DNA of 64,000 nucleotides from Salibacterium aidingense DSM 18341 (GTDB lineage: Bacteria > Bacillota > Bacilli > Bacillales > Marinococcaceae). A model generated the notes under the pieces. The model made no database searches. It was not told the DNA's origin and saw only the letters and a list, made by a program, of their open reading frames with translations. Both the position numbers and the translations under genes were made by a program. Shown one piece after another: positions 20,094-41,927 of this stretch. Numbering within the stretch: the first letter of the stretch is position 1; each line of letters opens with the position of its first letter. The DNA is taken from NCBI RefSeq assembly GCF_000429685.1, contig NZ_AUCI01000006.1, positions 186,001-250,000 on the forward strand, written 5' to 3'.

Positions 20094-20181
20094 GAACGAA
20101 GAACTCTTTTTTGTCTAAATAAAACGGCGGCCGCCGGTCCTTATAAAGGGGGCCGTCCGCTGCAAAAGTCGGGACATTGTG

Positions 20182-20358
20182 CGGACATTTATTCCGTTAA
20201 CTGGCCGGATGGCCGGTCTGCGGAGGTTTTTCGGACATTTGTTCCGCTATTTTGGTTCTGGACCGCTTCTTTGACCCTCAAAAGGGGGAATAACGGAACA
20301 GATGTCCGCAACCCCCTTCAAAATAGGAAAAATCGAAGAAATAACGGAATAAATGTCC
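20182..20358. repeat. Nested inverted-repeat element, family 1, copy 1
   Basis: Four related words: A CGGACATTTATTCCGTTA (20182), B CGGACATTTGTTCCGCTA (20232), B' TAACGGAACAGATGTCCG (20291) and A' TAACGGAATAAATGTCC (20342). B pairs with B' around a 41-base loop, and A pairs with A' outside it. Offsets of 50, 59 and 51 bases almost equal those of the second copy at 39944-40123, and the loops align. No open frame is shared. It lies between the cggR promoter and the rpoN stop. Confidence 0.8.
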
Positions 20359-20415
20359 CCTTCATTAGGGAGACCTGCCTGAAATAGTCAATCCCCCGCT
20401 GCCGGCAGCTCCCTG

Positions 20416-38742: not shown

Positions 38743-39678
38743 TTAAAAATCCTCACGATCTCCCTCTTCGATCACGTCTGTCAAACGGTCGGAAAACTGC
38801 TGCGCGGTATTAATTCCCATTCGTTTCAGACGGAAATTCATGGCTGCGACTTCCACAATTACAGCGAGGTTCCGCCCGGGACGGACCGGGATAGTATACT
38901 TGGGGATTTCCGTATCGATAATCTGCAGTTTTGCTTCTTCGAGACCCAGCCGGTCATATGCTTTGTTTTCATCCCAAAGCTCCAGGTGAATCGTCAGCCC
39001 GATCCGTTTAAAAGGACGCACCGCTCCGGCACCAAACAAGGTCATCACGTCTATAATTCCAAGACCGCGGATTTCCAGGAGATGGCGGATCAATTCCGGA
39101 GCACTTCCCACCAGCGTATCTCCGTGCTGCTGAAAGATCTCTACTGAATCGTCTGCTACCAGGCGGTGGCCGCGCCGTACCAGATCCAGTGCCGTTTCAC
39201 TTTTCCCAACTCCGCTTGCTCCGGTGAGCAGGACACCGATACCGTAAATATCAACGAGCACCCCATGTACGGCCGTCGATTTTGCAAGCCGGGCTTCCAG
39301 AAAATTTGTTAATTGACTGCTCAAACGAGTTGTCGTGACATCCGCTCTCATAACAGGTACCCCCATATTTTCCGCACTCTCTATTAGTTCAGGGGGAGCA
39401 ATCAAACCGCGTGAGATAATAATACCGGGTGTATCATATGTACAGAGTTTTGTCATTCGTTCCTTTTTTTCCTCGTCACTTAACTGCTGGAAAAAAGAAA
39501 GCTCCGTGCGCCCCAGCAGCTGAAGCCTTTTTGCCGGATAGTACGTAAAAAAACCAGCCATTTCTATCCCCGGGCGGGAAATATCGCTTGTGGTGATGGC
39601 ACGGTAGACACCATCCTGCCCCGCCAGTACTTCTAAGTTGAATTGATGGACTAAATCATTGGCACTTACTTTTGGCAT
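38743..39678 (-). CDS. hprK: HPr kinase/phosphorylase
   Basis: 311 residues. Phosphorylates HPr and Crh on Ser46 and removes the phosphate by phosphorolysis, setting CcpA-dependent repression. Walker A GASGVGKS at 153-160, ADDSVE after it, and the HprK signature [11 protein letters not shown]. The N-terminal domain (1-130) is of unknown function in the family. GAGGGG precedes the ATG. First gene of the operon, with a hairpin in its leader. Confidence 0.97.
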
Positions 39679-39694
39679 ACATACCCCTCTAACC

Positions 39695-39720
39695 TTTCCA
39701 GCGCGAAAGACGGCTGGAAA
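39695..39720 (-). promoter_or_regulatory. Leader hairpin upstream of hprK
   Basis: TTTCCAGC and GCTGGAAA, 10-base loop, ending about 6 bases before the ribosome binding site. No T-run follows. It could affect translation or message stability. Role unknown. Confidence 0.35.
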
Positions 39721-39943
39721 TCATCAGAATTTTTCTCCTTATACTTGTATTATTGTAGCACGATTTCACCTTCTATTGGAAATGGCAAATCAGCGGGAAA
39801 GGTTTGAAACAGAGAGGAAGGTGATGGTTTTTACAGAAGGCTGAGAAAAAGAAAAGAAAGGAACCCAGGTCCCTCGTCTTTCGTCCCTTGGAGCATTGCA
39901 AAAAAGGAGCTGCCAAGAATAGACACCCTTTTGCAGAAGCATG

Positions 39944-40123
39944 AGGACATTCGATCCGTTATTCTCTGGATTTTTCGCTTTTGCAAGGGGGATTCGGACA
40001 TTTGTTCCGCTAATCGGGGCCTAGAGCGCTTTTTTTCGCTAAAAAAAGGGGAAATAAAGGAACAAATGTCCGAAAAAAACGGCACAGGCCGATCATTTGG
40101 CCATTTAACGGCACAAATGTCCG
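39944..40123. repeat. Nested inverted-repeat element, family 1, copy 2
   Basis: Words A GGACATTCGATCCGTTA (39945), B CGGACATTTGTTCCGCTA (39995), B' TAAAGGAACAAATGTCCG (40055) and A' TAACGGCACAAATGTCCG (40106). Offsets of about 50, 60 and 51 bases match copy 1 at 20182. B is identical in both copies. The inner loops align (CTAGAGCGCTT-TTT against CTGGACCGCTTCTTT, then AAAAGGGGGAA-like). It fills the yvlD-hprK gap (39679-40172), which has no gene. Confidence 0.8.
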
Positions 40124-40172
40124 CAGGGAGCTTCTCATATAGGCGGCCGGCCTTTCCGTGTTCCTGTTAGAT

Positions 40173-40529
40173 TTATTTTCTTCGCAGCGGCTCGACGATA
40201 AAGTTGTTGATTAACACGTTTAACAGAGCGATGACCACGGCAGCAAGCAGCGCCATGCCAAAGCTGGAAATGTTAAACGAATCTCCCATCAACCCGGCTG
40301 TCAGCATAAGCAAGGCCGCGTTGATAATAAAGATAAAAAAGCCGAGCGTAAATACGGTAATCGGCAGGGTAAGAATCACAAGCAGCGGTCGAATAAGAAC
40401 GTTTATAATCGATAAAAGAAGGCTTGCCATAAACGCTGCGGCAAGTCCGTCAAGCTCAAATCCCGGGAAGAACCCGGCGACCACCATGAGCGTTACCATA
40501 TTCACAAGAAACGGAACGAGACACCCCAT
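40173..40529 (-). CDS. yvlD: Phage-holin-like four-helix membrane protein YvlD
   Basis: 118 residues, four hydrophobic helices and a basic C-terminus (VEPLRRK). DUF350-like membrane proteins of this family (Pfam 'membrane protein of unknown function', mycobacteriophage superfamily IV type) have the LLLSIINVLIRPLLVILTLP segment seen here. The role is unknown; in B. subtilis it is in the cell-envelope-stress operon yvlABCD. Its start overlaps the yvlC stop by one base. Confidence 0.82.
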   Translation of the reverse strand: MGCLVPFLVNMVTLMVVAGFFPGFELDGLAAAFMASLLLSIINVLIRPLLVILTLPITVFTLGFFIFIINAALLMLTAGLMGDSFNISSFGMALLAAVVIALLNVLINNFIVEPLRRK

Positions 40530-40729
40530 TACTCTGTGACATCTCCTTCATTGGGCATGATGATCGCAAGGGCAATATAAGCGACAAGGACCGGGAAACC
40601 TGCTGTAACAAAAAATAAAAGAACACTGACAATACGGATCAGAGTAGGATCCACATTAAAGTAGTCAGCGATGCCGCCGCATACACCGGCAAGCATTCGA
40701 TTACTCTGGCTGCGTACTAGTTTTTTCAT
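40529..40729 (-). CDS. yvlC: PspC domain protein YvlC
   Basis: 66 residues, a single PspC domain: KKLVRSQSNRMLAGVCGGIADYF followed by a membrane helix and the ending AIIMPNE. Phage-shock-protein C-like proteins act in membrane-stress sensing. Between yvlB and yvlD. Confidence 0.9.
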   Translation of the reverse strand: MKKLVRSQSNRMLAGVCGGIADYFNVDPTLIRIVSVLLFFVTAGFPVLVAYIALAIIMPNEGDVTE

Positions 40730-40742
40730 TGCTTTTCCCTCC

Positions 40743-41927
40743 TCAGGTGTAGTCCGGTTTCACCGAAATAGAACCGGTTTTCGTACTGGCATTCAAACGC
40801 AGTCTTGGAGCGGCTGCATGATTAGATGTGAAGCGCAGCGATTTTTGAATAAAATCTTTTTTCTCTTCATGAATGTCCATATCGCTCAGGGAATAATTGT
40901 AATTCCCAACATTCGTCCGTAATTGTCCTTCGGTACGAATATGCTCCGGAACGGTAACAAATATACTTCCTGTGGTTGCCGAGAGGTTCGCTCTGGCATC
41001 CTGAGTAATTTTGATCAAGCTGTCAATCGTCCCATTCACAGATTCCGCTTCCAAATCCCGGATTTCGGAGTTTAGTTCTATGGTGCCGTTCATGGTTTTA
41101 ATATCTCCAATGTCCACGCGCCCGCCCGTTATTTTTATGGGGCCGTTCACTGTTTCCGCATGAAACTTCATGGCATCCGGGTTTTGGATCGTGAGGCTTC
41201 CATTCACTGCTTTAGCAGAAAAACTGTTTACTTTTACTTCTTCCCCTTTCAAATGCCCGTTAAACGTGTAGGCCTGCAGACGTTCATACGTTTTACGCGG
41301 AACATACATTACGGCATTCACTTTTATTGATTTGGTTCTCGTATAAAACTGCAGATGACTGCCGTCAACTTCAAATGCGGTCTGGTTCAGAAATTCCTCC
41401 CGGGCTTCGTCCTGGGTTCTGCCCTTATATACCTTCACATCACATTCTATTTTCACATCCGGCTCATCCCAGGGTTTCCATTCCAGCGAGCCGTTTTCAA
41501 GCGAAACATCAACCACCGACTGTTCCATATTTTTATGCTGGAAGATATGGTGAACTTCCTGATACGGGCCAAAATTAAAATCAAGATCTAGTTCTTTTAT
41601 TTTCTGAATGGCACTGTCGATAAAGTCAGTGAATCCTGTGGCGGGATCCGTTTTTTTCCGCCTTTCGGATTCCTCGCCGTTTTCTGTCTGCTGCTCTTTC
41701 TCCCGGCTGACCCGGGTCGACAATTCTGTCTCTGTTGAAGCTTCCGTGACAGTCCCCTGCTGCTCTTTCGGACCAGAACCTTCCTCCGGCCCGGAAACCG
41801 AAGCATTGCTATCCTCTTGCTGATCCTCCGATTTAGAGTTTAAGGCTTTTAAAAGTTTCGATCCATCTTCCGGAGTGATTTTTCCCTCTTCCACCATTTT
41901 TAATATTAGTTTGCGTTCTTCCTCCAT
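40743..41927 (-). CDS. yvlB: DUF4097 envelope-stress protein YvlB
   Basis: 394 residues. Residues 1-45 are the short helical hairpin EEERKLILKMVEEGKITPEDGSKLLKAL seen in LiaX/YvlB proteins, followed by an acidic low-complexity linker (about 45-95). Residues about 150-390 are repeated beta-strands of the DUF4097 type (AKAVNGSLTIQN, AETVNGPIKITGG, AESVNGTIDS). Start at 41927 with AAGGAAGGG ahead; the frame extends to 41969. In B. subtilis the operon responds to envelope stress. Confidence 0.88.
   Translation of the reverse strand: MEEERKLILKMVEEGKITPEDGSKLLKALNSKSEDQQEDSNASVSGPEEGSGPKEQQGTVTEASTETELSTRVSREKEQQTENGEESERRKKTDPATGFTDFIDSAIQKIKELDLDFNFGPYQEVHHIFQHKNMEQSVVDVSLENGSLEWKPWDEPDVKIECDVKVYKGRTQDEAREEFLNQTAFEVDGSHLQFYTRTKSIKVNAVMYVPRKTYERLQAYTFNGHLKGEEVKVNSFSAKAVNGSLTIQNPDAMKFHAETVNGPIKITGGRVDIGDIKTMNGTIELNSEIRDLEAESVNGTIDSLIKITQDARANLSATTGSIFVTVPEHIRTEGQLRTNVGNYNYSLSDMDIHEEKKDFIQKSLRFTSNHAAAPRLRLNASTKTGSISVKPDYT

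Follow-up and report, generated by a model that had tools for sequence, protein, structure and literature searches.

Element copies in the window

The window (the whole stretch of DNA analysed, 64,000 nucleotides of Salibacterium aidingense DSM 18341, contig NZ_AUCI01000006.1, positions 186,001 to 250,000) carries two copies of a repeated element (Table 1). Copy 1 lies between the 3' end of rpoN and the 5' end of cggR, and copy 2 between hprK and a gene that we take to encode a YvlD-like membrane protein (the names rpoN, cggR and hprK are those of the original prediction). Genomes, contigs and loci are denoted by G, C and L numbers where needed; C5 is the contig of the window.

Table 1 Coordinates of the element copies, their neighbours and the probable partner gene. 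Positions are those of the window unless a contig is given.
Feature	Position	Strand	Remarks
Probable partner gene, this genome	C5:34915-35559		first site 7 bp after stop codon
Element copy 1	about 20181..20360 (C5:206181-206360)	+	from sequence and covariance model
Copy 1 sites	20183-20199, 20233-20249, 20291-20307, 20342-20358		spacing 50/58/51
hprK	38743..39678	-	start ~265 bp from copy 2
Element copy 2, four-site	39944..40123	.	from sequence and covariance model
Copy 2 site A, GGACATTCGATCCGTTA	39945..39961	+	from sequence
Copy 2 site B, GGACATTTGTTCCGCTA	39996..40012	+	from sequence; 51 bp after A
Copy 2 site B'	40055..40071	-	from sequence; 59 bp after B
Copy 2 site A'	40106..40122	-	from sequence; 51 bp after B'
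Membrane protein gene, presumably YvlD-like	40173..40529	-	3' end ~50 bp from copy 2

The second copy of a nested inverted repeat, which the original prediction placed here, is real. Its description was correct but incomplete: the element consists of four sites, A, B, B' and A' in this sequence, each a copy of a single 17-bp motif (GGACATNTNTTCCGYTA) and the last two reversed. The inner repeat B does have an identical core in both copies, of 20 bases rather than the 18 first given (TTCGGACATTTGTTCCGCTA at 20230 and 39993), and copy 2 is upstream of hprK, as had been stated, although the 3' end of the gene before it is nearer than the start of hprK. The segment from B to B' of copy 2 is reversed relative to the outer spacers, an arrangement that suggests a possible inversion between these inner repeats; since outer spacers and inner loop have opposite orientations, no single strand was assigned to this copy (139 bits on one strand and 116 on the other with the covariance model). 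The folding z-score of copy 2 is -5.4 as DNA and -6.4 as RNA. As predicted, no transposase was seen in either of the two gaps.

A link of the element to carbon control, raised earlier from the neighbouring genes and tentatively ascribed to chance, is not supported, and the tentative ascription stands, because copies adjoin many different genes and the yvlD-hprK gaps of relatives within the genus carry no such element. The hprK orthologues of three genomes of the same genus are 95-96% identical; the gap sequences of two of them (L134 and L135) lack the element, while in the third (L133, G002) the gap measures 196 bp between BLAST blocks versus 397 bp here. The covariance model found no element in the same-genus genomes G002 and G003. 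The gap at L134 (G003) contains a different palindromic repeat, GGACACTACAT...ATGTAGTGTCC.

Number, position and orientation of the elements in the genome

An 18-base form of the motif, TTTCGGACATTTGTTCCG, matched this genome 149 times with up to 3 mismatches, compared with 6 matches of the reversed control, and the repeat is thus far beyond chance. BLAST searches gave 74 matches, grouped into 40 elements (40 of 94 candidates scored). A covariance model built from 24 copies gave 136 matches over both strands, which were merged into at least 79 distinct elements; this is a minimum, given that 150 of the 2339 candidates received a score. This genome-wide count supports the dispersed element of the original prediction.

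The elements are not distributed at random among gap types. With gaps taken from a simple gene caller, which left the neighbours of 13 of the 79 elements unresolved, 26 of the other 66 lie in convergent gaps, 40 in co-directional gaps and none in a divergent gap, versus 37, 276 and 67, respectively, of 380 other gaps; among the other gaps of at least 100 bp (n=216), 63 are divergent and 23 convergent (Fisher tests against these, p 5e-9 and 5e-7). In co-directional gaps the element is nearer to the 3' end of the upstream gene in 29 of 40 cases, and no element was placed within a gene by the gene caller.

Owing to the asymmetry of the spacers in this genome, the model strand reveals how an element is oriented. 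After omission of 6 of the 79 elements with a strand difference below 15 bits, 64 of 73 confident elements fit one rule, in which the sign of the local GC skew gives the direction of replication. By replichore, 38 of 40 elements agree, and among them all 16 in convergent gaps, in which gene direction favours neither orientation (this test omits contigs on which fewer than 3 elements lie or whose mean skew is at most 0.03; contig C15 was split at 30 kb, where the skew changes sign, and its elements were thereby lost to the three-element minimum). The pattern suggests that insertion or retention is tied to the replication fork. Replichore orientation was seen in this genome only: an orientation asymmetry of 37 elements in Alkalihalobacillus bogoriensis and a relative (g17; p 0.004) may reflect base composition, and the tests were not significant in Rossellomorea marisflavi (12 elements, p 0.21) or in G277 (6 elements, p 0.058).

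Architecture of the array

The four sites are usually spaced at 51/58/51 bp. In genomes of other genera (A. bogoriensis, R. marisflavi, Texcoconibacillus, Gracilibacillus, Pseudalkalibacillus, Aquibacillus and Bacillus suaedae), the A-B spacing was exactly 51 in 46 of 48 pattern matches, with 48-53 permitted, and the inner spacing was 58 in 40, 59 in 8 and 57 in 4 of 52 cases. An inner spacing of 58 was also found in 38 of the 39 copies of this genome that passed a loose threshold, in a scan in which the outer spacings were fixed at 51 and hence only the inner one was tested. Spacing is the most constant feature of the element. The spacers of A. bogoriensis are nearly free except for one A-run and one T-run, and the motif itself varies by lineage (GGATCCTCATTCCG in G387, GGACTCAGAATCCG in G177).

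Distribution across Bacillales

The 68-bp A-B unit was found in 25 of 397 Bacillales genomes, none of which had a control match, as was the case for all the others. The distribution is patchy: G143 and A. bogoriensis (G033) have 435 and 361 matches, and G078, of the same genus, has none (one with a looser pattern); likewise, G254 has 188 matches and the 14 other g39 species have none. In 14 syntenic stretches of G033 and G143, each of the 24 elements of G033 is matched in G143 by a counterpart that is either whole or interrupted; L257:8013, in stretches compared earlier, is the sole element lacking one. A comparison of these two genomes revealed no clean empty site showing a target duplication: the edges of one present/absent candidate are blurred, and one G143 element is absent from G033 by a deletion that left a single site behind. 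The R. marisflavi element had no match in plasmid or phage collections.

The genome G277 contains sets of near-identical copies, which point to recent dispersal or duplication. Its elements at L166-L175, except L170, lie within larger dispersed palindromes of ~470-680 bp, and at L102:905-1789 of R. marisflavi four elements form a tandem with a unit of ~230 bp. At L262:5671-15610 of G033, a segment of ~9.7 kb lies between two direct copies of the element, where G143 has one copy and no segment. A region of more than 200 kb (G033:C1, ~86-300 kb) lacks any called element, as does its syntenic counterpart in G143, compared with a genome-wide density of roughly one per 28 kb by half-element count. 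At L176-L179 of G143, the element stands at the end of a 3.18-kb repeat common to the four loci, which are possibly rRNA operons, and at L070 of this genome it is ~370 bp from a 5S gene.

Insertion sequences were met at several elements. A PF00872 mutator-family insertion sequence, presumably of the IS256 type, splits a G143 element (L317:10422-11804, compared with L296:8912 of G033), and in this genome an insertion-sequence-like end abuts the element at L042/L043, L047/L057 and L060. Several contigs of this genome end a few hundred bp past an element. The elements look like insertion hot spots.

Selection on the sites

In 29 orthologous pairs of elements from G033 and G143, the conserved positions of the sites show a divergence of 4.9% (80 of 1623 positions), compared with 12.5% for spacers (392 of 3147) and 14.1% for flanks (315 of 2227); a Wilcoxon test by element gave p 2e-4. 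The variable positions of the sites had changed at 39 of 348 (11%). Three of 32 pairs had been dropped, two with at least 25% divergence and one partial. Elements are detected through their sites, which biases the comparison towards conserved ones, at a loose limit (14 to 16 mismatches permitted in 68).

Compensatory changes were not in excess (2 double changes, 1.9 expected, among 568 base pairs of 17 pairs), and no covariation of A with A' or of B with B' was found in 33 copies of this genome or in 28 of A. bogoriensis. In an RNAalifold analysis of 24 copies, 5 of 21 pairs had at least one double change, with a covariation term near zero. A search of Rfam with positions 39000-41000 of the window gave nothing above a gathering score, the best match being RNA-OUT with 19.1 bits (gathering score 41). 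An RNA family or RNA stem was therefore rejected for lack of both an Rfam match in the stretch searched and covariation. Since the sites diverge less than the spacers and compensatory changes are lacking, the sites act as DNA rather than as RNA stems; most simply, they are predicted to be protein-binding sites in double-stranded DNA.

The probable partner gene

When the proteins encoded next to elements were clustered over many genomes, one protein of ~217 amino acids was the only group present in four genera; among the others, a solute-binding-like protein reached three genera and the rest two, which by a rough estimate is near chance. In this genome the gene for this protein is on the same contig as the window copies (Table 1) and is likely the partner of the element. 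The first site follows the stop codon by 7 bp in R. marisflavi, 6 bp in P. caeni and 13 bp in G277, and the R. marisflavi gene has two elements on either side.

A profile search of the 397 genomes detected intact copies (more than 300 bits) in 23, of which 19 have a single copy, as well as fragments in others and a second type of the protein (type II) scoring ~170 bits. A four-site array downstream of the gene exceeded the 99% level of shuffled sequences in 23 of 27 loci, second-type genes included (L361, L362 and L366 were omitted from this test); it exceeded all 540 shuffles in 19 loci and started within 60 bp in 19 of the 23. Four of the 27 gene loci had no scored downstream array, and two of these (G401 and G150) have arrays upstream.

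The pairing of gene and element was examined with a looser half-element pattern (GGA-N7-TCCGYTA twice at 51 bp, 2 mismatches permitted), which matched at least three times in 33 of the 397 genomes, controls giving at most one match per strand. The protein or a fragment of it is present in 26 of these 33 element-rich genomes versus 5 of the 364 others (p 2e-29), and the intact protein in 20 versus 3; the genomes are related, so that such p-values overstate independence and are too small. The cut-off of three matches was picked after the counts had been seen, and cut-offs of 2 and 5 gave p-values of 5e-27 and 3e-29. Score and judgement were used to assign fragments to type I, and G191 and G354 were counted differently in two tallies. 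Five genomes with at least three half-element matches (G030, G072, G098, G226 and G234) had neither protein type detected, two element-rich genomes (G090 and G231) have the second type only, and three genomes (G056, G330 and G043) have the intact protein and fewer than three matches. In G387, a genome that the first pattern had missed, the protein is encoded beside a GGATCCTCATTCCG array; the looser pattern revealed 71 half-element matches in this genome, and the 10 listed belong to the GGATC group, as expected from the array beside the gene.

The distance between motifs is correlated with that between proteins (Mantel rho 0.375, p 0.004) over 19 loci with confident arrays; the test did not include the type II loci, L343, L349, L352, L353, L359 or the two broken loci, L361 and L362. 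When the protein was divided, the correlation was 0.475 (p 0.0005) for its winged helix and 0.195 (p 0.07) for its nuclease part (n=19, shared ancestry still being included in these values). The winged helix co-varies with the motif.

Structure and relatives of the protein

An AlphaFold model from 29 sequences had a pLDDT of 86.9 (an earlier model from 4 sequences, with a pLDDT of 47.4, was discarded). Residues 36-148 match the catalytic domain of I-Bth0305I (3r3p_A; Z 11.3, rmsd 2.1, 97/97 aligned) and, next, the putative endonuclease-like protein 3hrl (Z 10.2, rmsd 2.5, 93 aligned), in a comparison that covered the chains in the Foldseek listing; Foldseek itself gave no match at E <0.001. 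Residues 152-217 match winged helices by structure alignment. Residues E60, E62, D74 and E87 are invariant in the family alignment, and nuclease activity may be guessed from the modelled fold and this conservation.

Weak matches to DUF559 and MTES_1575 (best E 6e-4 and 4e-4) were obtained with 3 of 29 family members, presumed to be of type II. Sequence searches of PHROGs, PADLOC and the PDB gave weak matches only, mostly to the helix-turn-helix part. The protein had no match in the phage collection and one weak match in the plasmid collection (31.8% identity, on a 2.7-Mb Paenibacillus record). Beyond Bacillales, among 398 genomes of the phylum, strong matches came from G537 and from four members of family f48, which is of the same class. 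Neither the motif nor the protein family nor their pairing was found described in the open-access literature searched, in which six exact motif strings also had no match, and no description of the protein was found in the family databases searched.

Comparison with known systems

To our knowledge, large families of small palindromic repeats belong in bacteria to transposases, RAYT above all. PMC3116915 and PMC8049555 describe RAYT-REPIN as a single-copy gene with an adjacent cognate repeat, which has conserved ends, variable spacers and up to hundreds of intergenic copies and co-varies with the gene. Here, too, the cognate gene adjoins the repeat and co-varies with it, but the gene is not a RAYT: its product combines a fold like that of Vsr and EDxHD nucleases with a winged helix and is not a Y1 HUH transposase. 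Moreover, there are four sites at 51/58/51 bp, instead of two in a REPIN, and the arms show no covariation, which argues against recognition of a single-strand hairpin unless mismatches are tolerated. As the defining Y1 transposase was not found beside the elements, apart from two IS200-type fragments among the 30 Y1 loci fetched, the system is not a member of RAYT-REPIN, though similar in its working.

I-Bth0305I, an EDxHD enzyme, was described from a phage, and no dispersed non-coding repeat is known to us as its partner. The protein shares the fold of its catalytic domain and differs in having a winged helix after the nuclease domain. TnsA of Tn7 has a restriction-type nuclease followed by a winged-helix-like domain, and insertion of Tn7 can have a single polarity with respect to the replication fork; the domain order of the present protein may resemble that of TnsA. 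According to a review (PMC3943268), the target on which I-Bth0305I forms dimers measures nearly 60 bp, which is close to the spacing of 51-58 bp found here. In size, inverted repeats and intergenic location, the element is like bcr1, NEMIS, ERIC, RUP, EFAR and MITEs, as these are described in PMC3733652. It is unlike MITEs and small palindromic repeats in its fixed four-site array, the constraint on its sites and its non-transposase partner gene.

Proposed mechanism and alternative explanations

With a probability of roughly 0.6, we interpret the dispersed non-coding four-site array and the co-varying protein with a nuclease fold and a winged helix as an intragenomic replicator similar to RAYT-REPIN, in which a nuclease replaces the transposase. 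This reading builds on the observed architecture, distribution, gene-element pairing, motif co-variation and site constraint, and on the orientation in this genome; binding, cleavage and nuclease-driven spread of the element are what we infer from them. The protein, mostly encoded once per genome with its own array closely behind the gene, carries a domain similar to Vsr and EDxHD homing endonucleases, and its co-varying winged helix would recognise the sites as double-stranded DNA. Protein dimers would then bridge two sites 51-58 bp apart and cleave one or both DNA strands, after which the element would be copied, through repair or replication at the fork, to a new intergenic place with one strand polarity.

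Alternatively, the arrays may serve the host as genome-wide binding sites of a domesticated DNA-binding protein with a nuclease fold, having spread long ago and now acting in place, in chromosome organisation, in a supercoil- or fork-related role or in the control of transcription ends. The lower divergence of orthologous sites than of spacers is in line with such a function, as are the preference for 3' ends and convergent gaps, the replichore orientation and the fact that nearly all elements compared between the two related species are common to both. Against it speak the patchy occurrence, with hundreds of matches in G143 and G033 and none or one in G078 of the same genus, and the near-identical sets of copies in G277, which suggest that dispersal or duplication may be recent; we regard a host function as unlikely, though by no means negligible. 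A less probable view, which we would call improbable, is that the element is an ordinary MITE belonging to some unrecognised insertion sequence whose ends each hold two transposase sites, with the nuclease gene as a passenger. Inverted symmetry, intergenic dispersal and patchy occurrence would suit a MITE, but no longer element with such ends was recognised in the loci scanned and A-B halves without a partner were few (3 in the G033/G254 stretches and 8 in the other loci scanned). L075, which was read for genes, holds no transposase and resembles a degenerate full element, and the adjacency of gene and element, the motif co-variation and the site constraint would be left unexplained.

An RNA-level element kept for its stem, be it a terminator, an RNase III target or an sRNA, agrees with the strong predicted fold and the location mostly behind genes; it is made very improbable by the lack of excess compensatory changes, of covariation between the arms and of an Rfam match above the gathering score in the stretch searched, and by an orientation that follows the replichore in convergent gaps. 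Least probable of all is a REPIN moved by a RAYT, a Y1 tyrosine transposase. The REP-like location would be accounted for, orientation relative to replication would fit single-strand transposition (PMC6006769), and this genome has one RAYT-like gene, at C1:378426 (NF047646, 78.2 bits at a cut-off of 80). However, the motif is absent within 1.5 kb of that gene, and when 30 Y1 loci were fetched, out of 40 matches from 16 genomes, an element was present at only 2, both of them IS200-type fragments in G254. Moreover, no Y1 match was found in G290, with its 89 half-element matches, and no element match in G003, G275 and G256, which have Y1 genes.

Significance

The intragenomic replicator proposed here looks like a repeat-and-gene partnership of a previously undescribed kind. 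It is quite possible, and is put forward tentatively, that it represents a new class of replicators, in which a homing-endonuclease-like winged-helix protein does not copy its own gene alone but maintains and spreads non-coding four-site arrays, in numbers of up to hundreds, at the ends of genes and with one fork polarity, gene and array co-evolving across Bacillales and the protein extending beyond them. If this is true, a second, unrelated class of enzymes would have its own repeat, and this lifestyle would have evolved twice. The family would also provide a natural set of protein variants paired with 17-bp motifs from which winged-helix specificity could be read and, since selection acting on these sites is measurable in place, would make it possible to test whether such repeats are parasites or sites of the host.
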